Part shown: positions 35,938 through 51,014 of the stretch, piece after piece
Position numbering within the stretch: position 1 is the first letter of the stretch
Layout: the number at the start of each line of letters is the position of its first letter
From: Ruminococcus sp.
GTDB lineage: Bacteria > Bacillota > Clostridia > Oscillospirales > Ruminococcaceae
Reading direction: 5' to 3'
Length of the DNA stretch: 60,889 nucleotides
Assembly (NCBI GenBank): GCA_017519415.1
Contig: JAFWSI010000047.1
Coordinates: 1 to 60,889 of the forward strand
Program-made: the position numbers and the translations under genes
The notes under the pieces: model-generated
What the model saw: the letters and a program-made list of their open reading frames with translations, nothing else
Database searches by the model: none
What the model was told of the DNA's origin: nothing

Positions 35938-37071
35938 ATGTTCCTTCACATTCTTAAATATGAGCTGAAAAACGGTCTGCGCAATAAGGACCTTATCATA
36001 TGGCTCATACTTTTCCCCATAGTTCTGGGTACCTTCTTCAAGATAGCCTTCGGGAGCGTTTACGAAAAGACCGAGAAATTCAGCACCATACCCGTTGCCG
36101 TTGTGGAGACTGCGGAAAATCAGGCGTTCAGACAGGTGCTTGAAAGCATAGAGAGCGCAGATGAGCCTTTCCTCAGTGCAAGCTTCGTGAATAAGGAAAA
36201 GGCGGAAAAAATGCTGGACGACGGCGACGTGGAGGGTATCATCTTCTCGGGCGATAAGCTCAGCCTCACCGTAAAGGAAAAGGGCATACAGGAGACCATG
36301 CTCAGCGCCTTTGTGAAGCAGTATTCCGTCCGCGAGAAGATAGCAACGGACGCTTTGACTGCGGCTCCGGAAAAGGCACAGGAGGTAATAGCGGCCCTTA
36401 CGGGAGAGACAGTCTCCTCATGCAGGGAGATACCCCTTACTCAGGGCAATCCCGATATATATATCCAGTACTTCTATAACCTCATCGCTATGGTGGCGCT
36501 GTTCGGCTGCATGACGGGTATGCACATAACAATAACCAATCAGGCCGATCTTTCCGCTCTCGGAGCAAGGAACAACTGCTCGCCCGCACACAAATCGCTG
36601 AGCGTGCTTGCAGGCTTTGCGGGAAGCTGCGTGCTTCAGACAATATGCATGGTAATCTGTGTCACCTTCCTTGCATTCGTTCTCAGGGTGGACTTCGGAG
36701 ACAGACTGCCCCTTGTGTATCCTGCGGCCATACTTGGCGGCATACTGGGAGTAGCCTTCGGCTTCTTCGTGGGCTCTCTGGCAAGAGTGGGAGAAAAGGC
36801 AAAGACAGCCATACTTATGACCACCACCATGCTGCTGTGCTTCTTCAGCGGCCTTATGATAGGCAATATGAAGGCGTTCGTCGCAGAAAAGGTGCCATGG
36901 CTCAATGAGATCAACCCTGCGGCCCTGACATCGGACTGCTTCTACTGTCTGAACCTTTACGAGGATTACGACCGCTTCATATCAAAGCTCATCACTATGG
37001 CTGTGATAACAGTGATATTCATTTTTCTCGGCTTCATCACCTCAAGGAGGAAGAAATATGCAAGTATTTAA
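35938..37071 (+). CDS. ABC-2 type permease 1
   Basis: 377 residues from the ATG at 35938 (AAGGAGG 8 bases upstream), starting two bases after the ATPase stop. It has one N-terminal membrane helix (about 18-37), an external domain of about 150 residues, then five helices (about 180-370), the ABC-2/YhgE-like layout. It pairs with the next permease, so the transporter is probably a heterodimer. The cargo is unknown. Confidence 0.85.
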   Translation: MFLHILKYELKNGLRNKDLIIWLILFPIVLGTFFKIAFGSVYEKTEKFSTIPVAVVETAENQAFRQVLESIESADEPFLSASFVNKEKAEKMLDDGDVEGIIFSGDKLSLTVKEKGIQETMLSAFVKQYSVREKIATDALTAAPEKAQEVIAALTGETVSSCREIPLTQGNPDIYIQYFYNLIAMVALFGCMTGMHITITNQADLSALGARNNCSPAHKSLSVLAGFAGSCVLQTICMVICVTFLAFVLRVDFGDRLPLVYPAAILGGILGVAFGFFVGSLARVGEKAKTAILMTTTMLLCFFSGLMIGNMKAFVAEKVPWLNEINPAALTSDCFYCLNLYEDYDRFISKLITMAVITVIFIFLGFITSRRKKYASI

Positions 37072-38242
37072 GGCCATGACCAGGGTAATGAGAAAAAGGC
37101 TGCTCTCTGCCATGATATATATTATCGTATTTTTAGTCATATCTGTATTCATTGCCAATGTTTCCAACAAGGATAACAAATTCGAGCTGACAAAGCTGAG
37201 GATATGCGTTTTCGACGAGGACGATACTCCCGAGAGCCGCGCTCTCACGGAGTTTATCGGTAAGTCCAACGACCTTGTGGAGCTGGAAAACGACAGGGAT
37301 ACCATGATCGACGCTCTCTATTATATGCAGGTCAATTACGTACTCACTATCAACAAGGGCTACGCCGAGAAGATAGCGGCAGGGGATACGGCCGACCTCT
37401 TCGGCAGCTATCACATAGACGAGAGCTATTCCGTGGTATATATGGGACAGTTCCTCGACGAATATACCACATCGGTAAAGGCTTATCTCGCTATGGGAAG
37501 GACTATGGACGAGGCCGTCGCTGCTACAGAGGAGTCCCTCTCTCAGGAGACACAGGTGGATATGCTGAGGGTGGACAAGGCGGGAAATTCACATTTCAGC
37601 GTTGATTTCTCCATGTATTTCCAGTATATGCCCTATGTACTCGTATCGGCGGTGATGATCGTCATATGTCAGGTGCTTGTAACCATGAGCAGGAAGGACA
37701 TACGCTTCCGCACCAACTGCTCATGCCTCAGGGACTCGGAGTATACCTTCCAGCTCTTCTTCGGAAGCGGTCTGTTCGTGCTCGGAGTATGGCTGCTGCT
37801 CATGATAGTGGGAGCTGTAATCAACGAGGAGATGTACAGCGGCAGGGCGTGGCTGGCAGTATTCAACAGCCTTATATTCTCGGTCGTGGTGGCAGCCATA
37901 GCAGTGTTCGTTTCAAGCTTCGAGCCCAAGGACAACGTGCTGAACCTTATCACGCAGATACTCGGCCTTGGCATGAGCTTCCTCTGCGGAGTGTTCATAC
38001 CCACGTCAATGCTCAGCGGCAGCGTTCTTTCCGCGGCAAGGTTCATGCCTGCCTACTGGTACATCAAGGCTAACAATATGATAGCTGATATACAACCCTA
38101 CAGCTTTGAGGGAGTCATGAAGTGCTACGGAGTACAGCTTCTGTTCGTGGCGGCGCTGGTGCTCCTTACGCTGCTGGTGCGCAGGGTGAAGTACAGCGGT
38201 GCGGCCATAGGTACCTCCGTGAAGAAAGCGGCGGTCAGCTGA
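37058..38242 (+). CDS. ABC-2 type permease 2
   Basis: 394 residues, same layout as permease 1 with one helix (about 14-34), a long external domain (about 35-185) and six C-terminal helices. The ATG at 37058 overlaps the previous gene by 14 bases and has AAGGAGG 8 bases upstream. It completes the exporter. A strong terminator follows. Confidence 0.85.
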   Translation: MQVFKAMTRVMRKRLLSAMIYIIVFLVISVFIANVSNKDNKFELTKLRICVFDEDDTPESRALTEFIGKSNDLVELENDRDTMIDALYYMQVNYVLTINKGYAEKIAAGDTADLFGSYHIDESYSVVYMGQFLDEYTTSVKAYLAMGRTMDEAVAATEESLSQETQVDMLRVDKAGNSHFSVDFSMYFQYMPYVLVSAVMIVICQVLVTMSRKDIRFRTNCSCLRDSEYTFQLFFGSGLFVLGVWLLLMIVGAVINEEMYSGRAWLAVFNSLIFSVVVAAIAVFVSSFEPKDNVLNLITQILGLGMSFLCGVFIPTSMLSGSVLSAARFMPAYWYIKANNMIADIQPYSFEGVMKCYGVQLLFVAALVLLTLLVRRVKYSGAAIGTSVKKAAVS

Positions 38243-38287: not shown

Positions 38288-38314
38288 GCGCAGTGATTTT
38301 TGCCATTTTTTCAA

Positions 38315-38378
38315 TGACATATGTAATTTCGAAAGTGACGGAAGACATCTTAAAAGGTTCGCGGGAACGTGATAGAAT
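38315..38378 (+). promoter_or_regulatory. Operators and promoter of the Ig-like protein gene
   Basis: TGAC-ATAT-GTAA (38315-38326) and TGAC-GGAA-GACA (38336-38347), 21 bp apart, followed by -10 box TAGAAT (38373-38378) 37 bp from the second site. The second site and the spacing to the -10 box (36 bp there) match the exporter promoter at 34909-34950, so the same regulator probably controls both. Confidence 0.55.
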
Positions 38379-38475
38379 AAGACCATACCAAACGGGAAAA
38401 CGTTCAGGCGCCGGGCGTTTTTATAAAAACAATATCAGCAATTATAATTTATTTAAAAACGGAGGTAGTATTATT

Positions 38476-39771
38476 ATGAAAGCAATATCCAAAAAAATCG
38501 TAAGCTTATTCTCATGTGCAGTTCTTCTCTGCGGAGCGGGAGCTGTTCCCACCAATGCTGAAAGTCAGTCCGGAGTAAATACAACATATGCTGCTGTTGT
38601 AAGGAGAACAGTGGAAATTGCGCTCAACGGCTATGATTTTGAGCTTCCCATCGGCGGAAGTGTCAGCATTAAGGTCACAACAGGAAATATTTCATCTAAC
38701 AACACAACACTGAGCTATCAGTGGTACAAAAACGGCTCGGCTATCAGCGGAGCTACCTCGTCAAGCTATAATGCAACGTCGGAAGGCGAGTATTACTGCA
38801 AGATAAAGGCAACGAAAAAAATACAGTTAACAGGAAGAAGACCCTATACCAATTCCACGACATATGACACAAAGACAGCTACCGTGGTAAAAAAGCTGAC
38901 TATAACTTCTCAGCCTCAGGATACAGCTGTTATCAAACCGTATTTTTCACGTCAGTTCAGCATAGGTGTAACAGGCGGCACAGCTCCTTATACCTATGAC
39001 TGGACGCTGGACGGTACAGTTCTGCCTTTGGCTCATAACAAGAAGACTATCAATGTTACCACTCCCGGAAAGTACCAGTGCACAGTTACGGACAGCAAGG
39101 GCAAGACGGTAAAGAGCAGAGTTGCTGCTCTTACTGAGAATTTCCTCAGGATAACCAGTCAGTCCGGTGACGGAAATATCTATTCTCAGGGCGGTTCCTA
39201 TTATCTTTACGTAAATGCGGCAGGCGGTCTGGCTCCTTACAGATATGAATGGACTCTTGACGGCTATATCCTGCCAAACAACACAAACTACCTCTATGCA
39301 ACAGAGTTCGGAAAGTATTGCTGTACTGTATATGACGGCTACAACGATAAGGTAACGAGCAGTACGATGACCGTACATAATCAGGTCCTCAGGTTCAAGC
39401 AGCAGCCTGTTTCCGTGGCTTCAAAAGAATACGACCGTACAGCTACTCTCTCGGTATATGTAATTGGAGGAACAGGAAGATATGGTTATGAGTGGCAGAA
39501 ATATGTCAACGGCGAGTGGGTGAGCGCAAATTGCTACAAGCCGGAAATAAATGTCAGCAGAAGCGACGCGCATGCTTATTCATGGCGTGATAACGAAATA
39601 CACGGCGGACGTTCGGATCTGCATTATCTGATACACTACTACACTGACTACCGCTGTGTAGTAAAGACCTATGACTACTACGGAAATCTTGTTACTCAGA
39701 TCACAAGCAATACCGCAAGAGTCAATGATAATGTCAAGGATTATATCACAGACGTTGAATTCTATTGGTGA
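38476..39771 (+). CDS. Secreted protein with four Ig-like domains
   Basis: 431 residues. A signal peptide (about 1-30) ends near TNAES. Four tandem Ig-like units follow, each with a central Trp (YQWYKNG, YDWTLDG, YEWTLDG, YEWQKY) and a late Y-x-C core (YYCKIKA, YQCTVTD, YCCTVYD, YRCVVKT). There is no wall anchor, so it is released or binds another surface component. The ATG at 38476 has GGAGGT 9 bases upstream. It has its own promoter with operators like those of the exporter upstream, which suggests a shared role, perhaps envelope protection or export (inference). Confidence 0.8.
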   Translation: MKAISKKIVSLFSCAVLLCGAGAVPTNAESQSGVNTTYAAVVRRTVEIALNGYDFELPIGGSVSIKVTTGNISSNNTTLSYQWYKNGSAISGATSSSYNATSEGEYYCKIKATKKIQLTGRRPYTNSTTYDTKTATVVKKLTITSQPQDTAVIKPYFSRQFSIGVTGGTAPYTYDWTLDGTVLPLAHNKKTINVTTPGKYQCTVTDSKGKTVKSRVAALTENFLRITSQSGDGNIYSQGGSYYLYVNAAGGLAPYRYEWTLDGYILPNNTNYLYATEFGKYCCTVYDGYNDKVTSSTMTVHNQVLRFKQQPVSVASKEYDRTATLSVYVIGGTGRYGYEWQKYVNGEWVSANCYKPEINVSRSDAHAYSWRDNEIHGGRSDLHYLIHYYTDYRCVVKTYDYYGNLVTQITSNTARVNDNVKDYITDVEFYW

Positions 39772-39777: not shown

Positions 39778-39808
39778 AGAAAAGGAACTGCGATCGCAGT
39801 TCCTTTTT
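39778..39808. terminator. Bidirectional Rho-independent terminator
   Basis: AAAGGAACTGCGATCGCAGTTCCTTT is a perfect palindrome with T/A runs on both sides. It ends the Ig-like gene on plus and the biosynthetic operon on minus. Confidence 0.85.
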
Positions 39809-39810: not shown

Positions 39811-40515
39811 CTATCTGTCGCTGAGCTCCAGTTTCGCCTTGATTATACCGCAGACCTCCTCCATGTGCTGCCGATAGTAGAAATGCCCGCCGGTAAAGGG
39901 ATACAGCCTGCATTTTCCCCTTGTGAACCTGCCCCAGCCGCTCATGTCAACGCCTTTGAGCAGAGGGTCCTCAGTGCCGAAAAGGACGCTTATATCGCAG
40001 CCGAAGTTCAGTTCCGCAGGAGTTATACCGTAACGCTCGGTCATGCGCACATCGGTGCAGAGCAGTCCGTTCAGCAGCTTTATGAGCTCCTCGTTCACGG
40101 CGGGCAGGGGAGCAGACAGGGAGCCGCCGCCGAAAAAGGAAATTATCTCCCCGTCTGAAGCCGTATCCGCGTTCTCAAAGCAGTGCATTTTCACGTCCGG
40201 GGGATTTTTCCCCGACAGGAAGATATGCCTGGGAGCTGCAAGACCCTTTTCCTTTGCCTGACGGACGAGCTCCGCCGCAAGGGCAGTGCCCATGCTGTGT
40301 CCGAATATGGCGTAGTCGCCTCCGAGAAGTCCGGAATGCTTTTCTATGAGATCGGAGGCACAGGAGGGTACTGTGTCGAGGAGAGGCTCGGAAAGCCTTG
40401 TGAGGCGTCCCGAGAGCTCCATGGGGACCACCGTTAGCTCCTTCGGAAGGAACTGCCTGAATGCGCAGTAGCTCTTTGCGGAGCCCCCTGCGTGAGAGAG
40501 AAAGAAAAGTATCAT
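39811..40515 (-). CDS. Type II thioesterase (GrsT-like)
   Basis: 234 residues from the ATG at 40515. The alpha/beta-hydrolase nucleophile motif is GHSMG, the acid is probably Asp in LFGTEDP, and the catalytic His is in FTGGHFYY near the C terminus. The opening FFLSHAGGSAKSYCAF is diagnostic of the proofreading thioesterases that free blocked carrier proteins in peptide and polyketide synthases. It is the last gene of the operon, right behind a carrier protein. Confidence 0.88.
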   Translation of the reverse strand: MILFFLSHAGGSAKSYCAFRQFLPKELTVVPMELSGRLTRLSEPLLDTVPSCASDLIEKHSGLLGGDYAIFGHSMGTALAAELVRQAKEKGLAAPRHIFLSGKNPPDVKMHCFENADTASDGEIISFFGGGSLSAPLPAVNEELIKLLNGLLCTDVRMTERYGITPAELNFGCDISVLFGTEDPLLKGVDMSGWGRFTRGKCRLYPFTGGHFYYRQHMEEVCGIIKAKLELSDR

Positions 40516-40516
40516 A

Positions 40517-40768
40517 TCAGTCCTCCAAAGGCGTGCCTTTTTCGTTGAGCAGGTCGAATATCTCGCCCACTCTGCTGACCGAGGCCACAAGGGAAAGAGG
40601 TATGCCGAGCCTGTATGTATCCGTTATTTCGGAGCCGAGACCGAAAAGTCCAAGCGAATCAAGGAAAAGGTCGTCGTATACGTCGGTATCTCTCGTGATT
40701 TCCGCGGCGTCAACGCCCGCGTAGTCCGAGACAAGCTGTATGAAGCTGCCGAGGTCGAGTCCGTTCAT
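40517..40768 (-). CDS. Acyl carrier protein 2
   Basis: 83 residues with the phosphopantetheine Ser in FLDSLGL near residue 38, and helices typical of the family. It overlaps the ligase gene by four bases (ATGA), which points to it being loaded by that ligase. Its D-S-L surround differs from carrier protein 1. Confidence 0.85.
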   Translation of the reverse strand: MNGLDLGSFIQLVSDYAGVDAAEITRDTDVYDDLFLDSLGLFGLGSEITDTYRLGIPLSLVASVSRVGEIFDLLNEKGTPLED

Positions 40769-42333
40769 TGCTTATATTCCTTCTTTCTCAGGTATTTGAA
40801 TTGTATCTTGCCTATGTCCTTGGGTATGTCCTCAACGAGGACGACCCTGTCGGGTATCTTGTATGCGGAGAGCCTGCCGTCAAAGTATCTTGCCAGCTCG
40901 CCCCTCGTAACTTTTCCCCCGTCCTTTGGCTGTATATACGCCACTGTCTGCTGCCCTATGACGGGATGGGGCTCGTCAGTGACAGCTGCTGCCGCTATCT
41001 TCGGGTGAGTGAGGAGACAGGCCTCCACCTCCTCGGCGTGGACAAGGTTTCCGCCCCGCTTGATTATGCGCTTGCTCCTGCCGGCGAAGCGGACTATACC
41101 GTCTGGGAGCCTGTATACAAGGTCCCCTGTGCAGAACCAGCGACGTCCCTGACTGTCGGTGCGTATCTTTTCCGCGGAGAGCTCCGGGTTGCCGAAATAC
41201 TCCGTGATAACTCCGTCTGTGTATACGCAGAGCTCACCTGTTTCGCCAACGGGGACTTCCCTGTGCTGTTCGTCGATAACGCGGAAGTCGGTAAAGCTGA
41301 GCCTGCGGAAGTCGCTGGGGTCGGTGCCTGCGTCCCTGTCCGAATCCCACACCACCATGGTGCAGGTCTCCGAGGAGCCGATAACGTTTATGACCCGTAT
41401 GCCGAGCTTCTCCGTGAACACGTCGGCTATCTCCTTCGGGAGCACCTCTCCCGCAAAGTAGCAGATACGGACGCTTGAGAGGTCGTATCCGTCAAAGCCG
41501 GGTGTTGACAGCAGCACCTTTGCAAGAGTTGAGGTGAGCTGTATGACGGTTATCCTGTACTTCTGCACTGCTTCAAGGAAGGTGACGGGCTCGAACTGCG
41601 GCTGATACATCACCGTGCCGCCCTTCAGCGTCATCTGCTGTCCCATGCCGAAGCCTCCCTGATGATAGAGAGTCATGCCCAGCATCATAACGTCTCCGGA
41701 GCGGAAGCCGAGGTAGTCGCCCATATCTCTCTGCGCGGCGAAAAAGCCCCACGAGGGCACGGAAAGTATCTTGGGAGTTCCCGTGCTGCCCGAGGTGCAG
41801 GCGAGAGACATGGTGTGCAGCCTGTCGGGACGGTATATGCTGCATTCGCTGCTGCCGTATTCCGCTGTGAAGTCTTCTGCGGATATGCAGAGGCTGTCGC
41901 CGGGGATAAGGCTCCTCTCAGCAAAGCATACGATCTTTTTTACTGCCGTTCGCGGTGAAATAGAAGAGCTGACGGCGCCGATTATATCATTGTTTCTGTA
42001 GCGGCCGGAAACGAACATGAGCTTTACGGCAGCGGCGGGTATGAGCCCAGAGAGCTCCAGCGAGCCGCTCTGCGGGTCCATGGGTACGGGCTGAGCACCT
42101 ATCCTGACCGCCGACCAGAAAACCACATACCATTCTATGCTGTTGGGCATACATATGCCCACCTTGTCGTCAACGCCGATACCCAGTTTTTTCATGGCGG
42201 AGCCGAAGACCGCCGTCCTCTCCATGAAGCCTCCGTAGGTCAGTGTATCCCCGTCGATCACGAGGAGCGCCTTTCCGGGAGCTTCCTCTGCGTATCTGCT
42301 GTAATATCCGAAAAAATCCTCTGACATAATCAT
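40765..42333 (-). CDS. AMP-dependent acyl ligase (adenylating enzyme)
   Basis: About 522 residues. Core motifs are present: A3 TSGSTGTPK, A5 GSSETC, A7 FCTGDL, A8 RIIKRGGNLV and the A10 Lys in IGKIQFKYL. It would activate a carboxylic acid and load it on CoA or a carrier protein. Its direct coupling to carrier protein 2 suggests starter-unit loading. Start codons GTG 42336, ATG 42333 and ATG 42327 are all possible; I chose 42333, which overlaps the previous stop. Confidence 0.88.
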   Translation of the reverse strand: MIMSEDFFGYYSRYAEEAPGKALLVIDGDTLTYGGFMERTAVFGSAMKKLGIGVDDKVGICMPNSIEWYVVFWSAVRIGAQPVPMDPQSGSLELSGLIPAAAVKLMFVSGRYRNNDIIGAVSSSISPRTAVKKIVCFAERSLIPGDSLCISAEDFTAEYGSSECSIYRPDRLHTMSLACTSGSTGTPKILSVPSWGFFAAQRDMGDYLGFRSGDVMMLGMTLYHQGGFGMGQQMTLKGGTVMYQPQFEPVTFLEAVQKYRITVIQLTSTLAKVLLSTPGFDGYDLSSVRICYFAGEVLPKEIADVFTEKLGIRVINVIGSSETCTMVVWDSDRDAGTDPSDFRRLSFTDFRVIDEQHREVPVGETGELCVYTDGVITEYFGNPELSAEKIRTDSQGRRWFCTGDLVYRLPDGIVRFAGRSKRIIKRGGNLVHAEEVEACLLTHPKIAAAAVTDEPHPVIGQQTVAYIQPKDGGKVTRGELARYFDGRLSAYKIPDRVVLVEDIPKDIGKIQFKYLRKKEYKQ

Positions 42334-43448
42334 CACCCATTCAGCCTTTCCGCAATGAAGTCCGCCGCGATGTGTTTTATCCAGTGATACTGCTCTCCCA
42401 CGGGCATTGAGTGCATTATGGTCTCCTCGGAGACATAGGCGGGCTTATCCTCTATTCGTATGCACTCCTTATGCCCCGTCGCCTTGTCAATGAGACGCTG
42501 CGAGGCCTCGGGGGACATCCAGTTGTCGTCATCGCTGTAAACCATGAGGAAATCCGCATTATGTGTACCCTCCTCGAGGACCTTCATGCCCTCAAGATAG
42601 TCTTCGCCGTACTGGTACGAGCTCCATTTTCCCCGCTTCATCCACAGGGGTATGGAGTCCTGATCGGCAAAGTTCATAAGCAGAGGGAAAAGGCTTACAC
42701 AGGCTCTGATCCCCGGGTTCTTCACCGTAGCGCGGAAGGCGTAGCCGCCTCCCATGCACAGTCCGAAGTTCGCCAGTCTGTCACCGTTAAGCTCGGGACG
42801 GCTCTCAATGAAGCGGTATATGCCCTCAAAGGCTGCCTCCAGCTGTCTGCCGCCGCACTTGATATTGTTGTATATCAGCGCTCCTCCCGCTCCCGGCATA
42901 TCGGGAGCTATGACGGCTATGCCCCTTTCTGTGAGAGGAGCCGCAAGCATTTCGAGCTCCTCCTTGCAGCTGCCTATACCCGAATAGGTTATCGCTGCGG
43001 GGAAGCTCTCCGTGTTTCCGCCGCCGGGGTAGTGTATATAGGCAGGGAGCTTTCCGTACTCCGTATCTATCTCGGTATACTCCGACCTTTTCCCGCGGAG
43101 CTCCGTGAAGCGGCGGTAGCTTTCGGCAAGGCCGCCGTATATCTCCGTTTTGTGTTCAGGGTCCTCGATGTTTATCATAAAGCGGGCATAGTGACACTGT
43201 ACCGCCATTCTTGCATACTCCGCAGCGGAGACTTTATTTCCCGCCTTTTCGGCTTTGTCGCGCAGGCCGCTGTATCTTTCAAGCTTCTTCTGCCATTCTC
43301 CCAGCCACAGCTCCTGTATCTGTCTGCCGCTCCTTACATTTATCCCGTCAAGCTTTCTGAGTATATACTCGAGGTCGAAGGGATCGGCGCCGTAGAGCAG
43401 TGAGCGCGTGGTCACGGGATTGAGAAGTTCTCTTATCGCCCATTTCAT
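42333..43448 (-). CDS. Alpha/beta hydrolase with Cys nucleophile (dienelactone hydrolase/FrsA/Ayg1-like)
   Basis: 371 residues. The N-terminal helical part (about 1-115) precedes a hydrolase core with the nucleophile-elbow motif G-L-C-M-G-G, which has Cys in place of Ser, as in dienelactone hydrolase. The acid is probably in MVYSDDDNW and the His in the C-terminal EQYHWIKHI. The helical N terminus plus core resembles Ayg1-type polyketide hydrolases and FrsA. In this operon it may cleave or cyclise the product. Gap of 27 bases to the tautomerase gene. Confidence 0.72.
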   Translation of the reverse strand: MKWAIRELLNPVTTRSLLYGADPFDLEYILRKLDGINVRSGRQIQELWLGEWQKKLERYSGLRDKAEKAGNKVSAAEYARMAVQCHYARFMINIEDPEHKTEIYGGLAESYRRFTELRGKRSEYTEIDTEYGKLPAYIHYPGGGNTESFPAAITYSGIGSCKEELEMLAAPLTERGIAVIAPDMPGAGGALIYNNIKCGGRQLEAAFEGIYRFIESRPELNGDRLANFGLCMGGGYAFRATVKNPGIRACVSLFPLLMNFADQDSIPLWMKRGKWSSYQYGEDYLEGMKVLEEGTHNADFLMVYSDDDNWMSPEASQRLIDKATGHKECIRIEDKPAYVSEETIMHSMPVGEQYHWIKHIAADFIAERLNG

Positions 43449-43475
43449 ACATATATCTTCCTTTCGCAGCTCATT

Positions 43476-43826
43476 TCAGCCCGTATAGTGCCATGCGCTC
43501 TGTCTGTCCATTTCCGTGAACTGCATATATATCCGCCGCGGATCGGCGTTGGTATGCTTCCGTATGAGGCGCAGCATATTCTCGGATATGAGCTGTGATA
43601 CCCCCGTACTGCCGCAGCTGTGAGGCGGTATGTAACGGAACTCTGCAAAGAAGACCGTATCCTCGGAGGAGTCCATATACATGGTGCACTCGTCGAGGGT
43701 GAGCATGACCGCAGGCAGCGGCTTCCCGAGAATATGTGAGAGCTCTCCGGCCGCCTCGTCGAGAAAGGCGTTCCTTGCGGAGACAGAGCTGAACCTGTAA
43801 TTTGTCTTCATCTGTGCGATCGGCAT
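43476..43826 (-). CDS. MIF-like tautomerase
   Basis: 116 residues beginning M-P, so Pro would be N-terminal after Met removal, as needed for catalysis in the MIF/phenylpyruvate tautomerase family. The match runs over the whole length: LSHILGKPLPAVML in place of LAQATGKPPQYIAV of MIF, MYMDSSEDTVFFAEF, and RRIYMQFTEMDRQSAW in place of DRVYINYYDMNAANVGW. It probably moves a keto-enol bond in the pathway intermediate. Such a protein inside a ketosynthase operon is unusual. Confidence 0.75.
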   Translation of the reverse strand: MPIAQMKTNYRFSSVSARNAFLDEAAGELSHILGKPLPAVMLTLDECTMYMDSSEDTVFFAEFRYIPPHSCGSTGVSQLISENMLRLIRKHTNADPRRIYMQFTEMDRQSAWHYTG

Positions 43827-43846
43827 ATCATCGTCCTCCTTTCATG

Positions 43847-45058
43847 TTACGGCTTGTATTTTCTGAATATTAGGGTGGCATTGTGACCGCCGAAGCCGAA
43901 GGAATTGGAAAGCGCCGTATCGACTCTGTGCTCCTGTGCCCTGTTGGGGACGTAGTTCAGATCCAGCTCGGGATCGGGTAGACCGTAGTGTATGGTAGGA
44001 GGGACTGTGCCTGTCTCTATGGCCTTTATGCAGGCGATAGCCTCAAGAGCTCCGCCTGCACCGAGGGTATGGCCTATGGAGGCTTTCACTGACGAAACGG
44101 GGATCTCATAGGCGTGCTGTCCGAATACCTCCTTTATGGCCTTTGTCTCGTAAAGGTCGTTGAGAAAGGTGGAGGTTCCGTGAGCGTTGATGTAGTCCAC
44201 CTGACAGGGGGAGATACCCGCGTCCTCCAGGGCGAGACTCATGGACAGCGCCATGCCCTCTCCGTCTGTTTTCGGAGCTGTCATGCTGAATGCCTCGCTG
44301 CACATGGAGGCTCCCGCCAGCTCACAGTATATCCTTGCGCCTCTTGCTCTTGCGGAGCTCTCGGATTCCAGCACTAAGGTGCCGCCGCCCTCGCCCATTA
44401 TGAAGCCCTCGCGGTCTTTCGTGAAGGGACGGGCGGCTCTCTGCGGATCGGGATCCGAGGACATTGCAAGGAGCTGATCGAAGCCGCTTATGACCAGATG
44501 AGTCACCGTATTTGAGATACCTCCCGCCACGATCATATCGCACATTCCCGAGGCTATGAACTGCTTTCCGAGAGCAATGGCGTATGCCGAGGAAGCGCAG
44601 GCTGTGCTGACGTTGAAGGCGGGTCCCGTAAAGCCGTATTTTATGGAGATAAGAGCAGGGAGCTCGCTGGGCATTTTCTTGAGAGTGATGTTCAGGGGCT
44701 TTTCGAGCTCGGCGTCCTCATAGGAATTGTCGATCACTCCGAATATCACACCTGCTCTGCTCCCGTCGTATCCCGCTTCCTTGATCCCGCAGTCCGCAAG
44801 GGCTTCCCCCGCGGAGGCGAGCCCCATTCGCGTGGTGACCGTCGCTGCGTTCAGCTGACGCTTTTTCCAGTATTTTGCGGCTTCCTTTTCAAATTCTCCG
44901 TCCACCTCTGCCGCTACCGTCGTATCATGTCCGTCAAGGGGTATCCTTGTGATAGTTCTCATGCCGCATCTGCCCGAGATAAGTCCGTCCCAGTAATCCG
45001 AGGCTGTGCAGCCCACGGAGGTAACGGCTCCGAGACCTGTTATAACGACTTTTTCCAT
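43847..45058 (-). CDS. Beta-ketoacyl synthase (FabF-like)
   Basis: 403 residues with the full catalytic triad: Cys in STACASSAY, His in NAHGTSTFLND and His in ASIGHTLGAGGA, and the closing SFGFGGHNATL. The only condensing enzyme in the operon. The ATG at 45058 has AGAGG 8 bases upstream and is preferred over 45064. It probably condenses an activated acyl starter with an extender unit delivered by the acyltransferase, acting once or repeatedly. Confidence 0.92.
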   Translation of the reverse strand: MEKVVITGLGAVTSVGCTASDYWDGLISGRCGMRTITRIPLDGHDTTVAAEVDGEFEKEAAKYWKKRQLNAATVTTRMGLASAGEALADCGIKEAGYDGSRAGVIFGVIDNSYEDAELEKPLNITLKKMPSELPALISIKYGFTGPAFNVSTACASSAYAIALGKQFIASGMCDMIVAGGISNTVTHLVISGFDQLLAMSSDPDPQRAARPFTKDREGFIMGEGGGTLVLESESSARARGARIYCELAGASMCSEAFSMTAPKTDGEGMALSMSLALEDAGISPCQVDYINAHGTSTFLNDLYETKAIKEVFGQHAYEIPVSSVKASIGHTLGAGGALEAIACIKAIETGTVPPTIHYGLPDPELDLNYVPNRAQEHRVDTALSNSFGFGGHNATLIFRKYKP

Positions 45059-45080
45059 ATACATTACCTCTGATACAGTT

Positions 45081-46202
45081 TTAATTCAATATCCTGTCCC
45101 ATATCTCCCTGTCCGGACGTTTGTATGAGGAGAAGCCCGTTCTGCCATACAGCTCGTCAAGAGCCGCAAACAGACGATCTGTCCCGCAGTATCCGCAGTA
45201 CCGTGCAGGGGCTTCGGCAAGGCCGAGAACGTCCTGCACAGCATCAAGCAGGGTGGGAATATCTTTGTTATATCCTTTTGCTGCGTTGACTGTTTCGTTG
45301 AGTATCAGTGCTGTCATGTAAAGGGGAGCTTTGCTGAGATCGGCGGTTCCTGCGTCCTCACGCTCCGCCATAAAGGAAAGAAAGCTCCCTGTGCCTTCGG
45401 GGCAGCCCTCTGCCAGCCATTTCCTTATCCTTTCCGTACCGTAGCCGAGCAGAGCCCTGTTCCTTTCCGCAATGAAGCTGCCGGAGCTTCCCGACATAAG
45501 TCCGGGGCCGATGCTGTCCAGCATCTCAAAGGGCGCCGCTGCGGGGAAAAGCTCCCTCAGGGAATAATCGAGCTCCCTGACGGAGGCTCCGAGAAGCTCA
45601 CGGAGATATATGGCGTGAGAGACCGTGCAGGCGATCATCTGGTTGAGATACATATGGTATCCCTCCGTGAAGATGACAGGCCTTTTGCCTGCTGCTCTTA
45701 TGATATATTCGGCTCTTTCCGTGTATTCCCGCGGGTTTTCGGGCAGCAGGTTCAGCTCCGTGAAGTCCGTCAGCCTTACGGGAAAGAAGAAATGCATCCC
45801 GAAGCAGCGCTCTCTGTGGGGGATACCCTCAAAAACCGAGGAAATATCAAGAGAGGAGGTGTTGGTAAGCAGCAGACAGTCATCGGATACGGCCTGTGCC
45901 GCTCTTGCAAAGAACTCCTTTTTTGCTTCCATATCCTCGCATATGCTCTCGATTACCGCGTCGCAGTCTTTCAGCTTTGAAATATCGTCCGTGAAAAGGA
46001 AAGAGCCTTTCTTGAATTCGTACTGCTCCACGGTGAGCATTTTCCGTTTAAGTCTCTTCCCGAGGGAGCGCATGACGCCGTCGGTCTTTTCCTCCGCTCC
46101 CGAACGCGTTATGATAGTGAATTCAGCGTCGGGCAGCTTCCCGAAGAGCAGGGAGAATATTTCCTTTCCCATTTTTCCGAAGCCCGCTATGCCTATTTTC
46201 AT
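45081..46202 (-). CDS. 3-hydroxyacyl-CoA dehydrogenase-like protein
   Basis: 373 residues. The N-terminal Rossmann motif is GFGKMG; then come NTSSLDISS and the catalytic His in GMHFFFPV (family GMHFFNPxP). The C-terminal helical domain contains LNQMIACTVSHAIYL. It is of the FadB/beta-oxidation type, not the short-chain reductase normally used by polyketide synthases. In a biosynthetic direction it would reduce a 3-oxo to a 3-hydroxy group. Start overlaps the crotonase stop by four bases. Confidence 0.85.
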   Translation of the reverse strand: MKIGIAGFGKMGKEIFSLLFGKLPDAEFTIITRSGAEEKTDGVMRSLGKRLKRKMLTVEQYEFKKGSFLFTDDISKLKDCDAVIESICEDMEAKKEFFARAAQAVSDDCLLLTNTSSLDISSVFEGIPHRERCFGMHFFFPVRLTDFTELNLLPENPREYTERAEYIIRAAGKRPVIFTEGYHMYLNQMIACTVSHAIYLRELLGASVRELDYSLRELFPAAAPFEMLDSIGPGLMSGSSGSFIAERNRALLGYGTERIRKWLAEGCPEGTGSFLSFMAEREDAGTADLSKAPLYMTALILNETVNAAKGYNKDIPTLLDAVQDVLGLAEAPARYCGYCGTDRLFAALDELYGRTGFSSYKRPDREIWDRILN

Positions 46203-46903
46203 ATCCGCTCACCCCTTTCGTCGGGGTATGAGCCGATATAGCTCCTGTAACGGCATGGGACGAATTTTTCCGTATTCTCCGAGATATGTCCTATTAATGC
46301 CAGCGCTTCCTGAAATCCCTGCTTTTTCGGGACCAGTATATCCGCCCAGCCTATGGCGAGAGCTCTTTCCGCTGTTATGAGATCTCCGGACATAACCAGC
46401 TCATAGGCGTTCTGTATGCCGCATAGCTCTGCGGTACGCGCTATCCCGCCGAGAGCCGGAAGCATACCGAAGGCGGATTCGGGCTGACCAATGCGGGCGT
46501 TCTCCTCGGCTATCCTGTAATGGCTGTTGGCGGCTATCTCGCAGCCCGAGCCTATACAGAAGCCTGTGACCACACTGACGACGGGGAAGGGGAGCTCCCT
46601 GAGAAAGGTAAAGAAATGCTTCTGCCTGATATGTCCTTCCGGCAGGCTGCTGCCGTCGGTGAACTCCGCGGCGGTGCGCTCTGCAAGAGCTTCCACATCT
46701 GCTCCCACGCTGAAATGTCTGCCGGCGCCCCTTATTATGAGTCCCTTGTAAGCACGTTCTGCGGCAAGTTTTTCCACCCTTTCCATTACCGCTTCGTACT
46801 CGCGGAAGAAGTCCGCCGTCATAAGGTTGTTACGGGGCATATCCATTGAGAGTATGAGTATGCCTTCTCTTTCTTCAAGTATCATGCCTTTGTTATCGCC
46901 CAT
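46199..46903 (-). CDS. Enoyl-CoA hydratase/isomerase family protein (crotonase 2)
   Basis: 234 residues from the ATG at 46903 with GGAGGT 7 bases upstream. It has the oxyanion-hole region GRHFSVGADV, GFCIGSGCEIAAN and the second Glu region IGQPESAFGM, so both active-site acids seem present. It probably hydrates or dehydrates the acyl intermediate. It overlaps the degenerate crotonase gene by 11 bases. Confidence 0.88.
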   Translation of the reverse strand: MGDNKGMILEEREGILILSMDMPRNNLMTADFFREYEAVMERVEKLAAERAYKGLIIRGAGRHFSVGADVEALAERTAAEFTDGSSLPEGHIRQKHFFTFLRELPFPVVSVVTGFCIGSGCEIAANSHYRIAEENARIGQPESAFGMLPALGGIARTAELCGIQNAYELVMSGDLITAERALAIGWADILVPKKQGFQEALALIGHISENTEKFVPCRYRSYIGSYPDERGERI

Positions 46904-47336
46904 GGCTGCCACCTCCGTCCGCAGGAGCCATAAGGCGGTAAAAAGCCCTTGATTCGAGGTCCAGCACCTTCTTCGCGGGAGCTGTCCTCGCTGCGGCAAA
47001 GCAGGCGGTGATCTCCCTTATCTGCGCCACGGACTTGCCGTCGAACAGTCTTTCCGCGTAGTCCTCCGCTTCTGAGGAGCTTATGCGTATATCCGCCGCC
47101 GCACTGAGCTCCTTATCGGTATCGTCTCCGCAGACCGCCGCCGTCATGAACGGAGCCTCCGCAAGAAACCGCCGTACTGCCGACTTTTCCTCTTCGCTTC
47201 TGCCGAGGACTGCTCCGCAGTCGGGATAAATTATCAGGAGGCAGACATCGCTCCGAAGCTCCTCTGCGGAGAGGAGCTGATAAAGTGAGCTCAGTCCGCG
47301 TATCTCCGCGGCGAGTCCTTTTTTATAAACGTTCAT
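46893..47336 (-). CDS. Degenerate, shortened crotonase-like protein
   Basis: 147 residues. The first half matches the crotonase core with the catalytic part altered: PFMTAAVCGDDTDKELSAAA replaces PLITAAAINGGCFGGGLEIAL of crotonase 1, so the Gly-rich oxyanion loop is absent. The second half LFDGKSVAQIREITACFAAA matches LMEGKSISQIRAVTETAALA. About 90 residues between them are missing. It looks like a crotonase pseudoenzyme, perhaps a structural partner of the two active ones. It is intact as a gene, with 11-14 base overlaps on both sides. Confidence 0.65.
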   Translation of the reverse strand: MNVYKKGLAAEIRGLSSLYQLLSAEELRSDVCLLIIYPDCGAVLGRSEEEKSAVRRFLAEAPFMTAAVCGDDTDKELSAAADIRISSSEAEDYAERLFDGKSVAQIREITACFAAARTAPAKKVLDLESRAFYRLMAPADGGGSHGR

Positions 47337-47733
47337 CGTCGTTCCTCCCGATAAAATCTCTTATCCTGTCGGGTATATCGCAGATGATACGCTCCCTGTC
47401 AACGTATGCGAGTTTGCCTGCGACCCTGCATGAAAGGAGCTCCGCAGTTTCGTTTATCATATCGTGCCTGTAGCTGACTATGCCGCCGGAGCAGCTCAGC
47501 TCCGTTTCTATCCTTACCCTGTCGAACATTTTAAGCTCGCGGATATATCTCTGACGGCTCTCAAGTATCACGGGGAACAGCCCTTCTTCCTCAAGTGTGT
47601 CCGTAAGACCGTTGGAGCCGAGGAAATCCCACAGCGCCGTCTCGGAATACTGAAGATAGACGGAATTGTTCACATGGCCGAAGGAGTCCAGCTCATAGCC
47701 CCGTACAGTGAGTCTGTAGATGTGTTTTTTCAT
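47323..47733 (-). CDS. Hotdog-fold thioesterase (4HBT type)
   Basis: 136 residues with the signature YELDSFGHVNNSVYLQYSE, including the conserved Asp and the HVNN motif. It would release an acyl group from CoA or a carrier protein. It overlaps the crotonase 1 stop by four bases and the next gene by 14. Two thioesterases in one operon suggest separate release and proofreading roles. Confidence 0.88.
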   Translation of the reverse strand: MKKHIYRLTVRGYELDSFGHVNNSVYLQYSETALWDFLGSNGLTDTLEEEGLFPVILESRQRYIRELKMFDRVRIETELSCSGGIVSYRHDMINETAELLSCRVAGKLAYVDRERIICDIPDRIRDFIGRNDDERL

Positions 47734-48461
47734 AGCTTCCGTGCCTCCGCCAGTACCGCCTCGAATTTCCCCTTTGAGGGATCGGCGGCTCCGTCCATGG
47801 CAAGGGCTGCTGTTTCCGTTACGGCCCGTATCTGGGAAATGCTCTTTCCCTCCATGAGCTCCCTTACGAAGGCTACAGTTTCGCCGAAAGCGTCCCTGTC
47901 CCTGCTGACTCTGGTCACAAGCCCCATTTCAAGAGCCTTTTCCGCGCCCAGTATCTCTCCGCCCAGTATCATGGAGAGCGCCTTTTCCCGTCCTATCAGC
48001 CTGCACAGGCGTTCCGTCCCGCCCATGCCGGGGACAACTCCGTGTGTCACCTCGGGAAGTCCGAGAAAGGCGGAGGGCGAAGCTATCCTGAACTGACAGC
48101 TGAGGGCAATTTCAAGTCCGCCGCCGAAGCAGCCTCCGTTTATGGCGGCAGCGGTTATAAGCGGCAGCCTTTCTATTATGCGCAGAAGCTCCCTTGCTTC
48201 TTCAAGCTTCGCGGAGAGCTCCGCGGCGTCCGTCCCTCCGAAAAGGGAAACGTCGGCTCCGTGGGAGAAATGCCGTCCTTTTCCCGTAATGATAAGAGCC
48301 CCTGCCTGCGGATATTTGTCCGGAAGGGTCAGGAGCTCCCTGCGGTCTGCGAATCCGGGCTCGGCAAGCAGGTTTTTTGGACCGTTGTCTATGGTGAGCA
48401 CCGCAATGTTTCCCTCCACGCGGAGCTCTGATATATTCGTTCCTTGCATAGCGGTTCTCAC
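47730..48461 (-). CDS. Enoyl-CoA hydratase/isomerase family protein (crotonase 1)
   Basis: 243 residues with GRHFSHGADVSLF, the Gly-rich oxyanion loop GGCFGGGLEIAL and GLPEVTHGVVPGMGG, so both Glu regions are present. The GTG start at 48461 overlaps the carrier protein stop by four bases; an ATG at 48449 is possible. Its C terminus resembles the degenerate crotonase in the same operon, indicating a shared origin. It likely acts on acyl groups on carrier protein 1. Confidence 0.88.
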   Translation of the reverse strand: MRTAMQGTNISELRVEGNIAVLTIDNGPKNLLAEPGFADRRELLTLPDKYPQAGALIITGKGRHFSHGADVSLFGGTDAAELSAKLEEARELLRIIERLPLITAAAINGGCFGGGLEIALSCQFRIASPSAFLGLPEVTHGVVPGMGGTERLCRLIGREKALSMILGGEILGAEKALEMGLVTRVSRDRDAFGETVAFVRELMEGKSISQIRAVTETAALAMDGAADPSKGKFEAVLAEARKL

Positions 48462-48760
48462 TGATCTGTTATGTCGTTGCCGTACTGATATATCCTGCAG
48501 AACATATCCACAACGTCCTTCATGGTGTTCATGGGGGTCCTGAGCATATATTTTCCTATGCTCTGGAGCTTAACGTCAAGACCGTATTTTTCCGCAGTCA
48601 TCTCGATAAGCTCCACGAACATCAGTGAATCGCTGCCAAGGTCGTTCTGGGGATCGGTCTCCATGGTTATGCTGCTTCTGTCCGTTTCACACTCCTCGGC
48701 ATAGTAGTCGAATATCATGTCCCTGATCTCTTGTCTGATCTCTTCTGTGATCTCTTTCAT
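48458..48760 (-). CDS. Acyl carrier protein 1
   Basis: 100 residues from the ATG at 48760, which has GGAGGT 7 bases upstream. The phosphopantetheine Ser is in LGSDSLMFVELI near residue 45. It carries a longer N terminus than carrier protein 2 and lies between the acyltransferase and crotonase genes. Confidence 0.88.
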   Translation of the reverse strand: MKEITEEIRQEIRDMIFDYYAEECETDRSSITMETDPQNDLGSDSLMFVELIEMTAEKYGLDVKLQSIGKYMLRTPMNTMKDVVDMFCRIYQYGNDITDQ

Positions 48761-48801
48761 TTGTGGCACCTCCGTAGAAAATTATATAGTAAATTTAATG
48801 T

Positions 48802-49692
48802 TCAGACGTCTTCAAGAGTGTAGATCCTGCAATTCCTGCTTACCCGCGAGAACCTGCTGACAGCGCTGTCGGCGCTCACGTCGAAGAACTCGGTGACGCC
48901 GAGCTCCTCCAGCTTTTTCATGGCAAGATCCCAGCGTATGGGGGTATATACGTTCAGCTGATTTTCCTTCATTATCCGGTTTCCCTCTGTCATGATCCCT
49001 CTGTCGAAGACGGAGAGGACGGGGTATGCGGGGGCGCTGTATTCCGCAGCGGTGCAGAAGGCGATGTATTCCTTTGAATACTCCTTCATCACGGGGTGGT
49101 GGTAGGCCAGACCTGTGCCTAAGCTGAAGGCCTTCAGGGCGCCCTCCCTGCGGCACAGTTCAAGAGCCTTTTCCACCGCTTCCGCCTGTCCGCATATCAT
49201 TGTGTGGAAGCTTGAATTGCCGCTGCCTATGACCAGCTCTTCCTCCGTGAACCTTTCCCGCAGCAATCCGCTGAGCTCGCTGTGTGAGAAGCCGATGACC
49301 GCTCCCATATCAAGCCCTGCGCCCTTTTCCTCGATGCAGCGCATTGTGGCGCGGTTCATCATTATAATATCCTGTGCGCATTCATGGCTGACCGCTCCGA
49401 AGCAGCCGCTTATGCTGACTATCCCGGAGCTGTAGCCTGCGCCAATATCGGGGATTATCCCTTTGCCCGTGTAGTATTCAAAGACCACCCTGTCGCATAT
49501 GAGAGAGATGATCCATTCCGCCACCTTTCTGTCAAAGGGAGCGTTCTTTTCCGGCTCTGTGTGCAGTCCGAGCCTGCCGAAGGCCTCGCTGCGGTAATGC
49601 ATGAATCTGTCCGTGAGCTCGGGCGGGAGCTTGACTGTCAGTTTTTCCGGCTTTGAGCCGATACCGTTGAAAAGAAAGGCTTTGCGGTACAT
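48802..49692 (-). CDS. Acyltransferase (FabD/trans-AT-like)
   Basis: 296 residues from the ATG at 49692, with AAGGAGT 7 bases upstream; the longer frame to 49764 has no ribosome site. The nucleophile motif is GYSSG rather than the usual GHSxG. A Gly-rich QAEAVEKALELC strand follows, and a His in YHHPVMKE is a candidate for the second catalytic residue. The shape is that of malonyl-CoA:carrier protein transacylases. It is the first gene of the operon. The Tyr in place of His in the nucleophile motif may affect donor choice. Confidence 0.75.
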   Translation of the reverse strand: MYRKAFLFNGIGSKPEKLTVKLPPELTDRFMHYRSEAFGRLGLHTEPEKNAPFDRKVAEWIISLICDRVVFEYYTGKGIIPDIGAGYSSGIVSISGCFGAVSHECAQDIIMMNRATMRCIEEKGAGLDMGAVIGFSHSELSGLLRERFTEEELVIGSGNSSFHTMICGQAEAVEKALELCRREGALKAFSLGTGLAYHHPVMKEYSKEYIAFCTAAEYSAPAYPVLSVFDRGIMTEGNRIMKENQLNVYTPIRWDLAMKKLEELGVTEFFDVSADSAVSRFSRVSRNCRIYTLEDV

Positions 49693-49789: not shown

Positions 49790-49822
49790 AAAAAGCCTTT
49801 CCCCGGGGGAAAGGCTTTTTTG
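49790..49822 (-). terminator. Rho-independent terminator of the ECF-S-like gene
   Basis: On the minus strand AAGCCTTTCC pairs with GGAAAGGCTT around a C/G-rich loop, followed by a T run. Confidence 0.85.
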
Positions 49823-49823: not shown

Positions 49824-51014
49824 TCAGTCTTTAAGATTTTCAGGCGTCTTTATAAGCTTTGCCTTGAAAAGGGCTGTGCAGATAAGAGTAGTGAATATCG
49901 TTGAGATGACCATCTCAAACAGTGCGTTTATACCGACTGATGTTATGAGGAACAGTAAGATGCTTTTTCCGGCTCTGAGCTTATCTATGTAATTGAATTT
50001 TTTGTAGATTTTAAGAGTGTATCTGCCGTCGCTGAGACCTCTGAGGTCAGCAGTGGACGTCTTGAACTTATATGTATTTCCGTTGATGCTGCTGCCGCCG
50101 AAGGTAGCGCCCTTGAGCTTCTTCGAGCTGAGGGTGAACTTGACTGCCTCGGAGCCTGCCGCAGAGGGGAGAGTTTCCTGAGTATCCCCGACGGTGAGGA
50201 CAAGATCGCTGCCGAACACGGCAGACTTTCCGTCAGCCGAGAATGCAACGTCCTTTCCGCCGTTATCCTTGATCTCGGAGATAACGCCGTTTGAAACGGT
50301 TATCGTATATTTGTTGTCGAGGCCTGTTGCCGTGTGGTTGAACAGGAGCACCAGTGCCGACATAAAGAATATCGTATTGAGTATTGCAGCCGAGAAGCCC
50401 GAAACGGCGCAGGACTGCTGTATCTTTGAAAGGTTCTTCCTGTTTATGAACCAGAATGCCAGACCGAAGCCCACAGCAAAGACAGCTATGAGAACGAGGG
50501 CGAGGGGGAGTCCCGAGGTCATGAATTTGTACATACCTGCGGACATCTTGTATTTTCCGTCCTTATCGTAGCATACGAGAAGCATAACGGAAAGGAAAAG
50601 TCCGATGAGGACGGCGCCTGCCACGGAGCTTGTTATTGCCGAGAGAACCTTTTTTGACTTTATCTTTGAAAGTCCGAGGAAAATAAGTCCGACGAGAAGT
50701 CCGTCGAAAGCACGTGAAACAACGCGCTGAATAAATGTAAGAACGGGGCTGATCTCAAGGGTCATTGCACCCATTCCGCTGAGCACGCCTATGCCGAAGC
50801 ACTGCAAAAAGCTGAATATGCCGAATACTATGCCCATTATGAGTCCTCCTACGGGACCGAGGGCGATAGCCGCGATAGCGATGGGGATGATGTTCAGGGT
50901 TATGGACAGGGGTCCGATGGGTATAGAGCCTATCGGCGTAAGGGAGAAGAGCGCCACGACGGCGGTCAGAAGACCCAGAAGCACCAGACTGCGGATGTTG
51001 AACTTTGCTTTCAT
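49824..51014 (-). CDS. ECF-transporter S-component-like membrane protein with inserted domain
   Basis: 396 residues. The first half (about 1-215) has five or six membrane helices and resembles the S components of ECF vitamin transporters (TPIGSIPIGPLSITLNIIPI is typical of the first loop). Residues about 225-350 form a soluble, Gly/Ser/Asp-rich beta domain, then a last membrane helix and a short tail close the protein. S components are normally about 180-200 residues, so this insert is unusual. The substrate is unknown. It lies upstream of the biosynthetic operon on the same strand but has its own terminator. The ATG follows AAGGAGG. Confidence 0.65.
   Translation of the reverse strand: MKAKFNIRSLVLLGLLTAVVALFSLTPIGSIPIGPLSITLNIIPIAIAAIALGPVGGLIMGIVFGIFSFLQCFGIGVLSGMGAMTLEISPVLTFIQRVVSRAFDGLLVGLIFLGLSKIKSKKVLSAITSSVAGAVLIGLFLSVMLLVCYDKDGKYKMSAGMYKFMTSGLPLALVLIAVFAVGFGLAFWFINRKNLSKIQQSCAVSGFSAAILNTIFFMSALVLLFNHTATGLDNKYTITVSNGVISEIKDNGGKDVAFSADGKSAVFGSDLVLTVGDTQETLPSAAGSEAVKFTLSSKKLKGATFGGSSINGNTYKFKTSTADLRGLSDGRYTLKIYKKFNYIDKLRAGKSILLFLITSVGINALFEMVISTIFTTLICTALFKAKLIKTPENLKD

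Follow-up and report, generated by a model that had tools for sequence, protein, structure and literature searches.

Two papers (PMC12144888, PMC11839114) state in their accessible text that the natural products known from strict anaerobes are few. Among the described systems closest to the one reported here is the cex/faf cluster (celluxanthene/flavoaffinin) of C. thermocellum, and in the accessible text of PMC12144888 the pigment of that organism is explained by cex. We have analysed a stretch of 60,889 nucleotides, in its whole length called the window, which is contig JAFWSI010000047.1 of a Ruminococcus sp. (GCA_017519415.1) and part of a 2.48 Mb genome that is 75% complete. On its minus strand, at 39811-49692, lies an operon of 13 genes. 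Set beside the available descriptions of cex/faf (PMC12144888, PMC11839114), both systems belong to cellulolytic anaerobes associated with pigment, and both combine an AMP-forming ligase, a free acyl carrier protein (ACP), an α/β hydrolase and what would be a malonate-based chain. Compared by description, however, cex has an iterative type I polyketide synthase (PKS), CexF, two KASIII enzymes and a phosphopantetheinyl transferase (PPTase), whereas the Ruminococcus operon has a separate acyltransferase, a FabF-type ketosynthase (KS), a FadB-type dehydrogenase, crotonases and a tautomerase. There is no PPTase gene in the operon, one ACPS-family gene being found elsewhere in the genome, and no KASIII-type gene among the 13, the only ketosynthase being of FabF type. 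No iterative type I PKS of the CexF kind was found; this genome and three other carriers (G010, G021 and G059; genomes and loci bear our own G and L numbers) have only two stand-alone KS genes each. We propose, with somewhat better than even confidence, that the 13 genes specify a small, iterative synthase of polyketide type made up of separate proteins, namely a reverse β-oxidation complex working on ACPs, with a decarboxylating KS in place of the thiolase.

Like an iterative discrete type II-like PKS, the operon has its KS, ACPs and acyl-loading enzymes as separate proteins, and their catalytic residues are intact. Aryl polyene type II clusters share with it the discrete KS, the ACPs, an AMP-forming ligase and a thioesterase. 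Those clusters have ketoreductases of the short-chain dehydrogenase/reductase (SDR) family, hotdog dehydratases and paired KS/KS-like subunits, whereas the operon has a FadB-type dehydrogenase, crotonases and a single KS. Family searches found no SDR ketoreductase and no hotdog dehydratase among the 13 proteins, the one hotdog protein matching thioesterase families, in agreement with the initial annotation, which had found the standard polyketide reductive enzymes absent. The operon fadBA likewise places a crotonase, a 3-hydroxyacyl dehydrogenase and a thiolase-superfamily enzyme in turn; here, in contrast, a FabF-type KS, an acyltransferase and ACPs would take the place of the thiolase and coenzyme A (CoA). 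Paired crotonases, a free ACP and a KS are also found in the β-branching cassettes built on HMG-synthase. The operon differs from these in that several carriers hold no further KS for it to act on and in that HMG-synthase (PF01154) gave no match in the operon or in its own 75%-complete genome, 7 of 14 control genomes being positive; its absence had also been stated in the initial annotation. The haliangicin cluster may serve as an example of such cassettes, and in the available text of its report (PMC4768178) the methoxymalonyl-ACP enzyme HliK/FkbK, which is of 3-hydroxyacyl-CoA dehydrogenase type, is proposed to work in polyketide biosynthesis on an ACP-bound unit. HliK/FkbK makes an extender unit, however, whereas the dehydrogenase of the operon is longer, looks FadB-like by eye in its C-terminal part and stands beside crotonases. 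The best solved relatives of the operon hydrolase include, behind DHPON hydrolase and a PET hydrolase, AntI of the Photorhabdus anthraquinone pathway and Ayg1 of a fungal pigment pathway, but the operon enzyme has a Cys where AntI has a Ser, and it is not accompanied by anthraquinone or melanin machinery. No description of the 13-gene set was found in the literature, as covered by titles and abstract openings and thinly for subscription journals; the initial annotation knew of none either, and the enzyme set is apparently uncharacterised.

The genes are transcribed in the order AT > ACP1 > ECHa > HD > ORF5 > ECHb > DH > KS > MIF > ABH > LIG > ACP2 > TE and are listed here in that order. Fractions are rows of the alignments, which cover the 66 loci described below and the window, one row per locus, with L103 omitted and missing or undetected genes absent.

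48802..49692, minus strand: AT, FabD/MdcH-like acyltransferase, probable malonyl transacylase (Pfam 19.7 bits, fabD 80.7 bits, both below cut-off)
48458..48769, minus strand: ACP1, acyl carrier protein (PP-binding 23.3 bits, above cut-off; Ser48 in 58/58)
47730..48461, minus strand: ECHa, enoyl-CoA hydratase-type crotonase, probable dehydratase (ECH_1 118.6 bits)
47323..47733, minus strand: HD, YbgC/4HBT_2 hotdog thioesterase (4HBT_2 65.5 bits; Asp16 in 59/59)
46893..47336, minus strand: ORF5, short pseudo-subunit of crotonase fold, probably a scaffold for ECHb (structure model and Foldseek; no family match)
46199..46903, minus strand: ECHb, second enoyl-CoA hydratase-type crotonase (ECH_1 102 bits)
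45081..46202, minus strand: DH, FadB/PaaH-type 3-hydroxyacyl dehydrogenase, probable ketoreductase (3HCDH_N 107 bits)
43847..45064, minus strand: KS, FabF-type ketosynthase (PRK07314 415.8 bits, cut-off 387)
43476..43826, minus strand: MIF, macrophage-migration-inhibitory-factor-like tautomerase (Pfam MIF, PF01187, 22.5 bits, cut-off 22)
42333..43448, minus strand: ABH, Cys-nucleophile α/β hydrolase, kin of DHPON hydrolase, PET hydrolase, AntI and Ayg1 (PDB matches)
40765..42336, minus strand: LIG, AMP-forming ligase of acyl or aryl acids, by which ACP2 is probably charged (AMP-binding 191 bits)
40517..40768, minus strand: ACP2, the second acyl carrier protein, whose gene shares 4 bases with that of LIG (PP-binding 30.2 bits; Ser38 in 60/60)
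39811..40515, minus strand: TE, type II thioesterase (PF00975 85.8 bits)

Family searches and conserved residues support the gene list of the initial annotation, from the transacylase to the type II thioesterase, with AT weak and MIF barely above its cut-off. Core residues, those that are catalytic in these families, are kept in 12 of the proteins, all but ORF5. AT keeps Ser112 and His222 (56/56, in the numbering of the 320-residue frame) and TE keeps Ser99, Asp208 and His236 (60/60, 259-residue frame). The two glutamates of ECHa, Glu117 and Glu137, are found in 59 of 60 rows with one gap, and those of ECHb, Glu135 and Glu155 in its 247-residue frame, in 58 of 59, the exception fitting the broken piece of L082. 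DH is invariant at Ser116, His137, Glu149 and Asn187 (62/62). KS has Cys156 in 61 of 63 rows (2 gaps), His295 in 62 (1 gap) and His332 in all 63; it is nearest to FabF in the PDB (320 bits, against 246 for the actinorhodin KS), is 39% identical to the other KS of its own genome, and is the sole ketosynthase among the 13 genes, no chain-length-factor partner being found. In MIF, Pro2, which directly follows Met1 and is the N-terminal catalytic proline of the family, is kept together with Lys35 and Tyr100 (64/64). Conservation is highest, by a wide margin, in LIG, with 228 of 523 positions at ≥97% in 64 rows and Lys510 in 61 of these (3 gaps); the models against which LIG scores best are those of fatty-acyl ligases, though below their cut-offs, and its top PDB match is a salicylate-AMP ligase. 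For ABH, Cys231 and Asp308 are invariant (66/66), and the PDB matches are DHPON hydrolase (2jbw, E 2e-12), a PET hydrolase (1.2e-6), AntI (8.7e-6) and Ayg1 (3.5e-5). The Cys aligns with the nucleophilic Ser of DHPON hydrolase and AntI. A Cys nucleophile is not unique to ABH, being present in the matches 8xho and PA2218 as well, and the enzyme may serve in transfer or cyclisation as much as in hydrolysis.

The genes overlap or nearly touch, as initially annotated, with overlaps of 4-14 bases or gaps of at most 32 bases at the junctions. From starts read in the sequence, ECHb begins at 46903 and overlaps ORF5 by 11 bases, TE begins at ATG 40515, 1 base past ACP2, and AT begins at ATG 49692, preceded by GGAAGGAG, which agrees with the end coordinate given in the initial annotation. 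Conserved 13-gene synteny had been set beforehand as a check on the operon, and it was found. A single scan covering 84,980 species genomes, made with the ABH alignment and by two short peptide patterns that favour close relatives, gave 66 loci. The 13-gene order is exact in 43 of them and collinear up to a cutting contig end in a further 14, which is beyond chance, and 9 loci deviate; L102 and L132 are counted as collinear although their KS is split over two overlapping frames. The deviations are ORF5-ECHb fusion (L121, L122, L143), ECHb-DH fusion (L134), ABH placed before KS (L137, L139), HD not found (L142), ORF5 missing with ECHb garbled (L082), and a mini-cluster (L103). Homologous genes are therefore not scattered in relatives; their order is kept in most of the loci. 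The same order is seen in a further listing of 36 main-cluster loci, many on the same contigs as the 66 and so not independent.

All record titles of the 66 loci read Ruminococcus, Oscillospiraceae, Bacillota or Clostridiales. The named carriers include R. albus KH2T6 and AR67 and R. flavefaciens YAD2003, ND2009, Y1, YL228, MA2007, SAb67, FD-1, 007c and ATCC 19208, the last (L133) with all 13 genes; the operon is conserved in rumen fibre digesters. The complete set is likewise present in genome G734, probably R. albus 7 by the sizes of its replicons, which measure 3,685,408, 420,706, 352,646, 15,907 and 7,420 bases. Within the genus the presence is patchy: the operon DH was matched in 52 of 125 genomes and in 28 of the 68 of good quality, leaving 40 without a match, and strong AT matches (E ≤1e-70, a line of our choosing) occur in 46 of the 125, with a second copy in 4 of them. 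ABH was found in 4 of 29 genomes of the genus of G734 and in 10 of 297 sampled genomes of the family, its own included, spread over 5 of 126 genera. At the level of the order it was met in 1 of 345 sampled genomes, its own one only, and at that of the class in 8 of 391 including its own, the other 7 being weak partial matches, none at full strength. Two of these distant homologues (L178 and L179) were set aside, having a Ser-type motif and no PKS context in the listed open reading frames.

We read ORF5, ECHb and DH as the α-subunit of FadB in pieces. Crotonase and 3-hydroxyacyl dehydrogenase form a unit, as overlapping genes in the window and as one fused protein in L134 (L134:6564-8393, 1 of 66 loci), where ECH_1 at 6-210 is followed by 3HCDH_N at 236-383, which is the domain order of FadB. 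The AlphaFold (AF2) model of DH has a pLDDT of 93.3. In the profile search of the PDB, 3-hydroxybutyryl-CoA dehydrogenases matched DH best and FadB α-subunits next, over about residues 1-247 only. The spacing of the DH tetrad in the alignment, 21/12/38 residues, equals that of human 3-hydroxyacyl-CoA dehydrogenase. ORF5, in turn, is fused to ECHb in L121, L122 and L143 as a single open frame of 390-401 residues. We infer that the three proteins form one complex, with KS in the place of the thiolase.

ORF5 matched no Pfam or NCBIfam family. In profile comparisons it found nothing in the PDB and nothing usable in ECHb, and ECHa was matched weakly, at the C-terminus (probability 16%), so that its crotonase fold rests on the structure model and its matches. 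The AF2 model (pLDDT 88.1, pTM 0.80) retrieved crotonase-type structures in all 50 rows listed by Foldseek, with a best E of 2.3e-4 and only 6 rows at or below 0.001, TM to the query of about 0.4-0.55, rmsd mostly 6-8 Å and identity of about 10-14%; ORF5 is about 100 residues shorter than the structures matched. The rows include named enoyl-CoA hydratases/isomerases as well as Nmar_1308, methylmalonyl-CoA decarboxylase, ThnE and LiuC, which belong to the crotonase superfamily. It should be mentioned that the initial annotation regarded this gene as a degenerate crotonase. The fold assignment holds for the model, but decay does not fit a gene that was detected in 55 of the 65 loci other than L103, keeps its C-terminal motif and is fused to ECHb in three loci; ORF5 is probably a conserved, non-catalytic crotonase-fold partner of ECHb.

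In the proposed mechanism, LIG would activate a carboxylic acid and load it as starter on ACP2, AT would place malonyl on ACP1, and the single FabF-type KS would condense the two. DH would then reduce the β-keto group and the crotonases would take out water, ORF5 keeping ECHb in place. KS would sit where the FadA thiolase sits in fadBA, with decarboxylative condensation setting the direction. Since no enoyl reductase was found among the 13 genes (the rest of the genome was not searched), the chain would stay unsaturated. MIF and the Cys-type ABH might tautomerise the chain and cyclise, shorten or release it, while HD and TE would remove finished or stalled chains. The ACP-bound substrates, the iteration, the unsaturation and the roles of MIF, ABH, HD, TE and ORF5 are all deduced from the gene content. 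An iterative CoA-type pathway had already been suggested in the initial annotation; its CoA-type reductive enzymes, two carriers and conserved setting are observed, and iteration is suggested by the KS counts, because the operon KS and one stand-alone KS resembling that of fatty acid synthase (FAS) are the only ones in G010, G021 and G059. G009 has these two and a mini-cluster KS, the own genome has two stand-alone KS only, and three, four and six matches were counted in G734, G240 and G008, respectively. With such counts, there is no modular PKS for the operon to serve in several carriers. A KS domain in G734 (G734:C5, about 981992-982687) lies in an open frame of 14,029 residues, apparently a giant synthase.

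Several observations weigh against the carrier-protein machine as proposed. AT scores weakly against the curated models, below cut-off in both Pfam and fabD, and its putative malonyl-binding Arg138 is present in 46 of 56 rows and missing in 10. The C-terminal third of DH had no sequence match in the Pfam or PDB searches, and its likeness to the second helical domain of FadB was judged by eye. The mini-clusters described below lack DH and the ACPs, an enoyl reductase belonging to the house FAS might work on the chain in trans, and the direction of the pathway and the ACP-dependence of the crotonases and DH are predictions. If the split FadB does work on carrier proteins, as we suppose, it would widen the known routes for polyketide reduction and dehydration.

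The same genes can be read in other ways. A degradative β-oxidation-type operon for a carboxylic acid, with KS replacing the thiolase, would account for the ligase, the crotonases and the FadB-type DH, and the order ORF5-ECHb-DH-KS mirrors fadBA. The catalytic set of thiolases is Cys-His-Cys, however, as against Cys-His-His in the decarboxylating enzymes, and because KS keeps Cys-His-His and is accompanied by AT, two ACPs and a LIG gene overlapping that of ACP2, with no acyl-CoA dehydrogenase among the 13, synthesis is favoured; we hold degradation to be extremely unlikely. A cassette modifying the lipids of the membrane or the house fatty acids, which would either produce unusual unsaturated acyl chains for lipids or act in trans on another synthase, would agree with a FabF-like KS that is 39% identical to the other KS of the genome, with the resemblance of LIG to fatty-acyl ligases, and with the further KS genes in the carriers G008, G734 and G240. 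It is nevertheless rather improbable in our judgement, as G010, G021 and G059 offer no further KS to serve, the operon's own AT, two ACPs, ligase, MIF and AntI-like hydrolase exceed the needs of fatty-acid modification, the patchy presence of DH (52 of 125 genus genomes) speaks against an essential membrane role, and a standard β-branching cassette would call for the HMG-synthase that was not found in the searches above. A small aromatic compound or pyrone would require DH to act only once or twice and ABH to cleave or cyclise the chain. AntI and Ayg1, two of the ABH relatives besides DHPON hydrolase and PET hydrolases, do shorten polyketides, and the operon does include MIF together with a hotdog thioesterase; yet family searches found no dedicated aromatase or cyclase family among the 13, the Cys of ABH in place of the Ser of AntI and DHPON hydrolase means that its chemistry may differ from theirs, and two intact hydratase-type crotonases suggest repeated dehydration. 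We consider this product class quite unlikely.

The product might also be a yellow, cellulose-associated, arylpolyene-like pigment, with discrete enzymes replacing the iterative type I synthase of the celluxanthenes, which appears to us possible but not probable. The starter would then be an aryl acid provided by LIG, with an arylpyruvate head group enolised by MIF; phenylpyruvate is a substrate of MIF-type tautomerases. The ligase, ACP, α/β hydrolase and KS of the operon parallel parts of cex. Strain ATCC 19208, which we take to be the same type strain as DSM 25089, carries the complete operon (L133). R. flavefaciens DSM 25089 is reported, in the accessible text of PMC12144888, to have neither a cex-like cluster nor celluxanthenes, and the operon is therefore a natural candidate for the pigment. 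Also in favour of a pigment, a yellow colour of R. flavefaciens is described in the available parts of PMC8865330 and PMC9653558, chiefly on cellulose according to one review. However, no MIF gene is on the cex gene list as given there in PMC12144888, and LIG is closest to fatty-acyl ligase models (below cut-off), although its top PDB match is a salicylate-AMP ligase. The gene family GH48 occurs in 112 of 125 genus genomes against 52 for DH, and 40 of the 68 good-quality genomes have no DH match. One review, in its accessible part, implies that R. albus is not yellow, while G734 has all 13 genes; isolates of both species are yellow on cellulose according to the available text of PMC11055587. 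That a carrier-protein reverse β-oxidation machine, as a new kind of biosynthetic logic, makes the yellow pigment of rumen R. flavefaciens, independently of the celluxanthene pathway used by other cellulose degraders, seems to us doubtful, and the operon offers one concrete locus for testing the question. Two comparisons were tried and dropped: co-occurrence of pigment and cellulolysis does not discriminate, GH48 being near-universal (112/125), and R. albus is unusable as a natural negative, since G734, presumably R. albus 7, carries the operon. In the text of a transcriptome paper on R. albus 7 (PMC4300822), a term look-up found no mention of polyketide, pigment or acyl carrier.

Separate mini-clusters of AT-ORF5-ECHb-KS lie beside the main cluster in L041, L042, L043 and L044 (genomes G009, G105, G075 and G015, respectively), and these parts can therefore travel together. 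In L043 the mini-cluster is followed by ABH at the contig end, where more may be cut off. The mini-cluster KS proteins form a single clade (support 100/97) inside the L105/FD-1/L090 group of the tree. Recombinase, integrase or MobA/MobL genes are found within a few kb of the mini-cluster in 3 of the 4.

L090 looks like a mosaic with one recombination point between KS and MIF. Its front half is nearer to FD-1 (L096), with identities of 64% for AT, 89% for ECHa, 82% for HD, 67% for ORF5, 85% for ECHb, 73% for DH and 81% for KS, against 59, 76, 60, 40, 62, 61 and 67% to ATCC 19208 (L133). In the back half the identities to ATCC 19208 are 87% for MIF, 86% for ABH, 91% for LIG, 89% for ACP2 and 75% for TE, against 83, 77, 86, 79 and 73% to FD-1. 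As the two halves differ in kinship, the part for building the chain and the part for processing its end may be interchangeable. A swap of AT, ORF5, ECHb and KS alone as a unit was considered for L090 and dropped, the whole front half from AT to KS differing from the back half.

The operon is flanked by two features.

39780..39807, minus strand: intrinsic-terminator-like hairpin with a 12-pair stem and a T-rich tail, directly past TE
49790..49821, minus strand: inverted repeat just past the upstream ECF gene, read from the sequence and absent from the list of the terminator scan

The terminator scan gave 15 such sites against 11.6 expected, and the hairpin at the end of TE is supported mainly by its position. 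Because the inverted repeat lies between the ECF gene and the AT start, the ECF gene is probably a transcription unit apart from the operon. That gene (49824-51014) encodes the substrate-binding component of an ECF transporter, and a related gene is found upstream in 24 of 66 loci. Further upstream, at 51540-55670, an open reading frame of 1376 residues appears by eye to be a repeat-bearing surface adhesin; similar-looking large proteins occur upstream of the operon elsewhere, the likeness being by look only. On the other side, convergent to the operon, a protein with Ig/PKD-like domains, apparently secreted, is encoded at 38293-39771. Genes for an ABC ATPase, with a DrrA-like C-terminus, and an ABC-2 permease follow at 34949-38242, also convergent; related genes are found downstream in 18-22 of 66 loci, and the pair is a possible exporter. 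An open reading frame of 2630 residues lies farther off in the window at 12021-19913.

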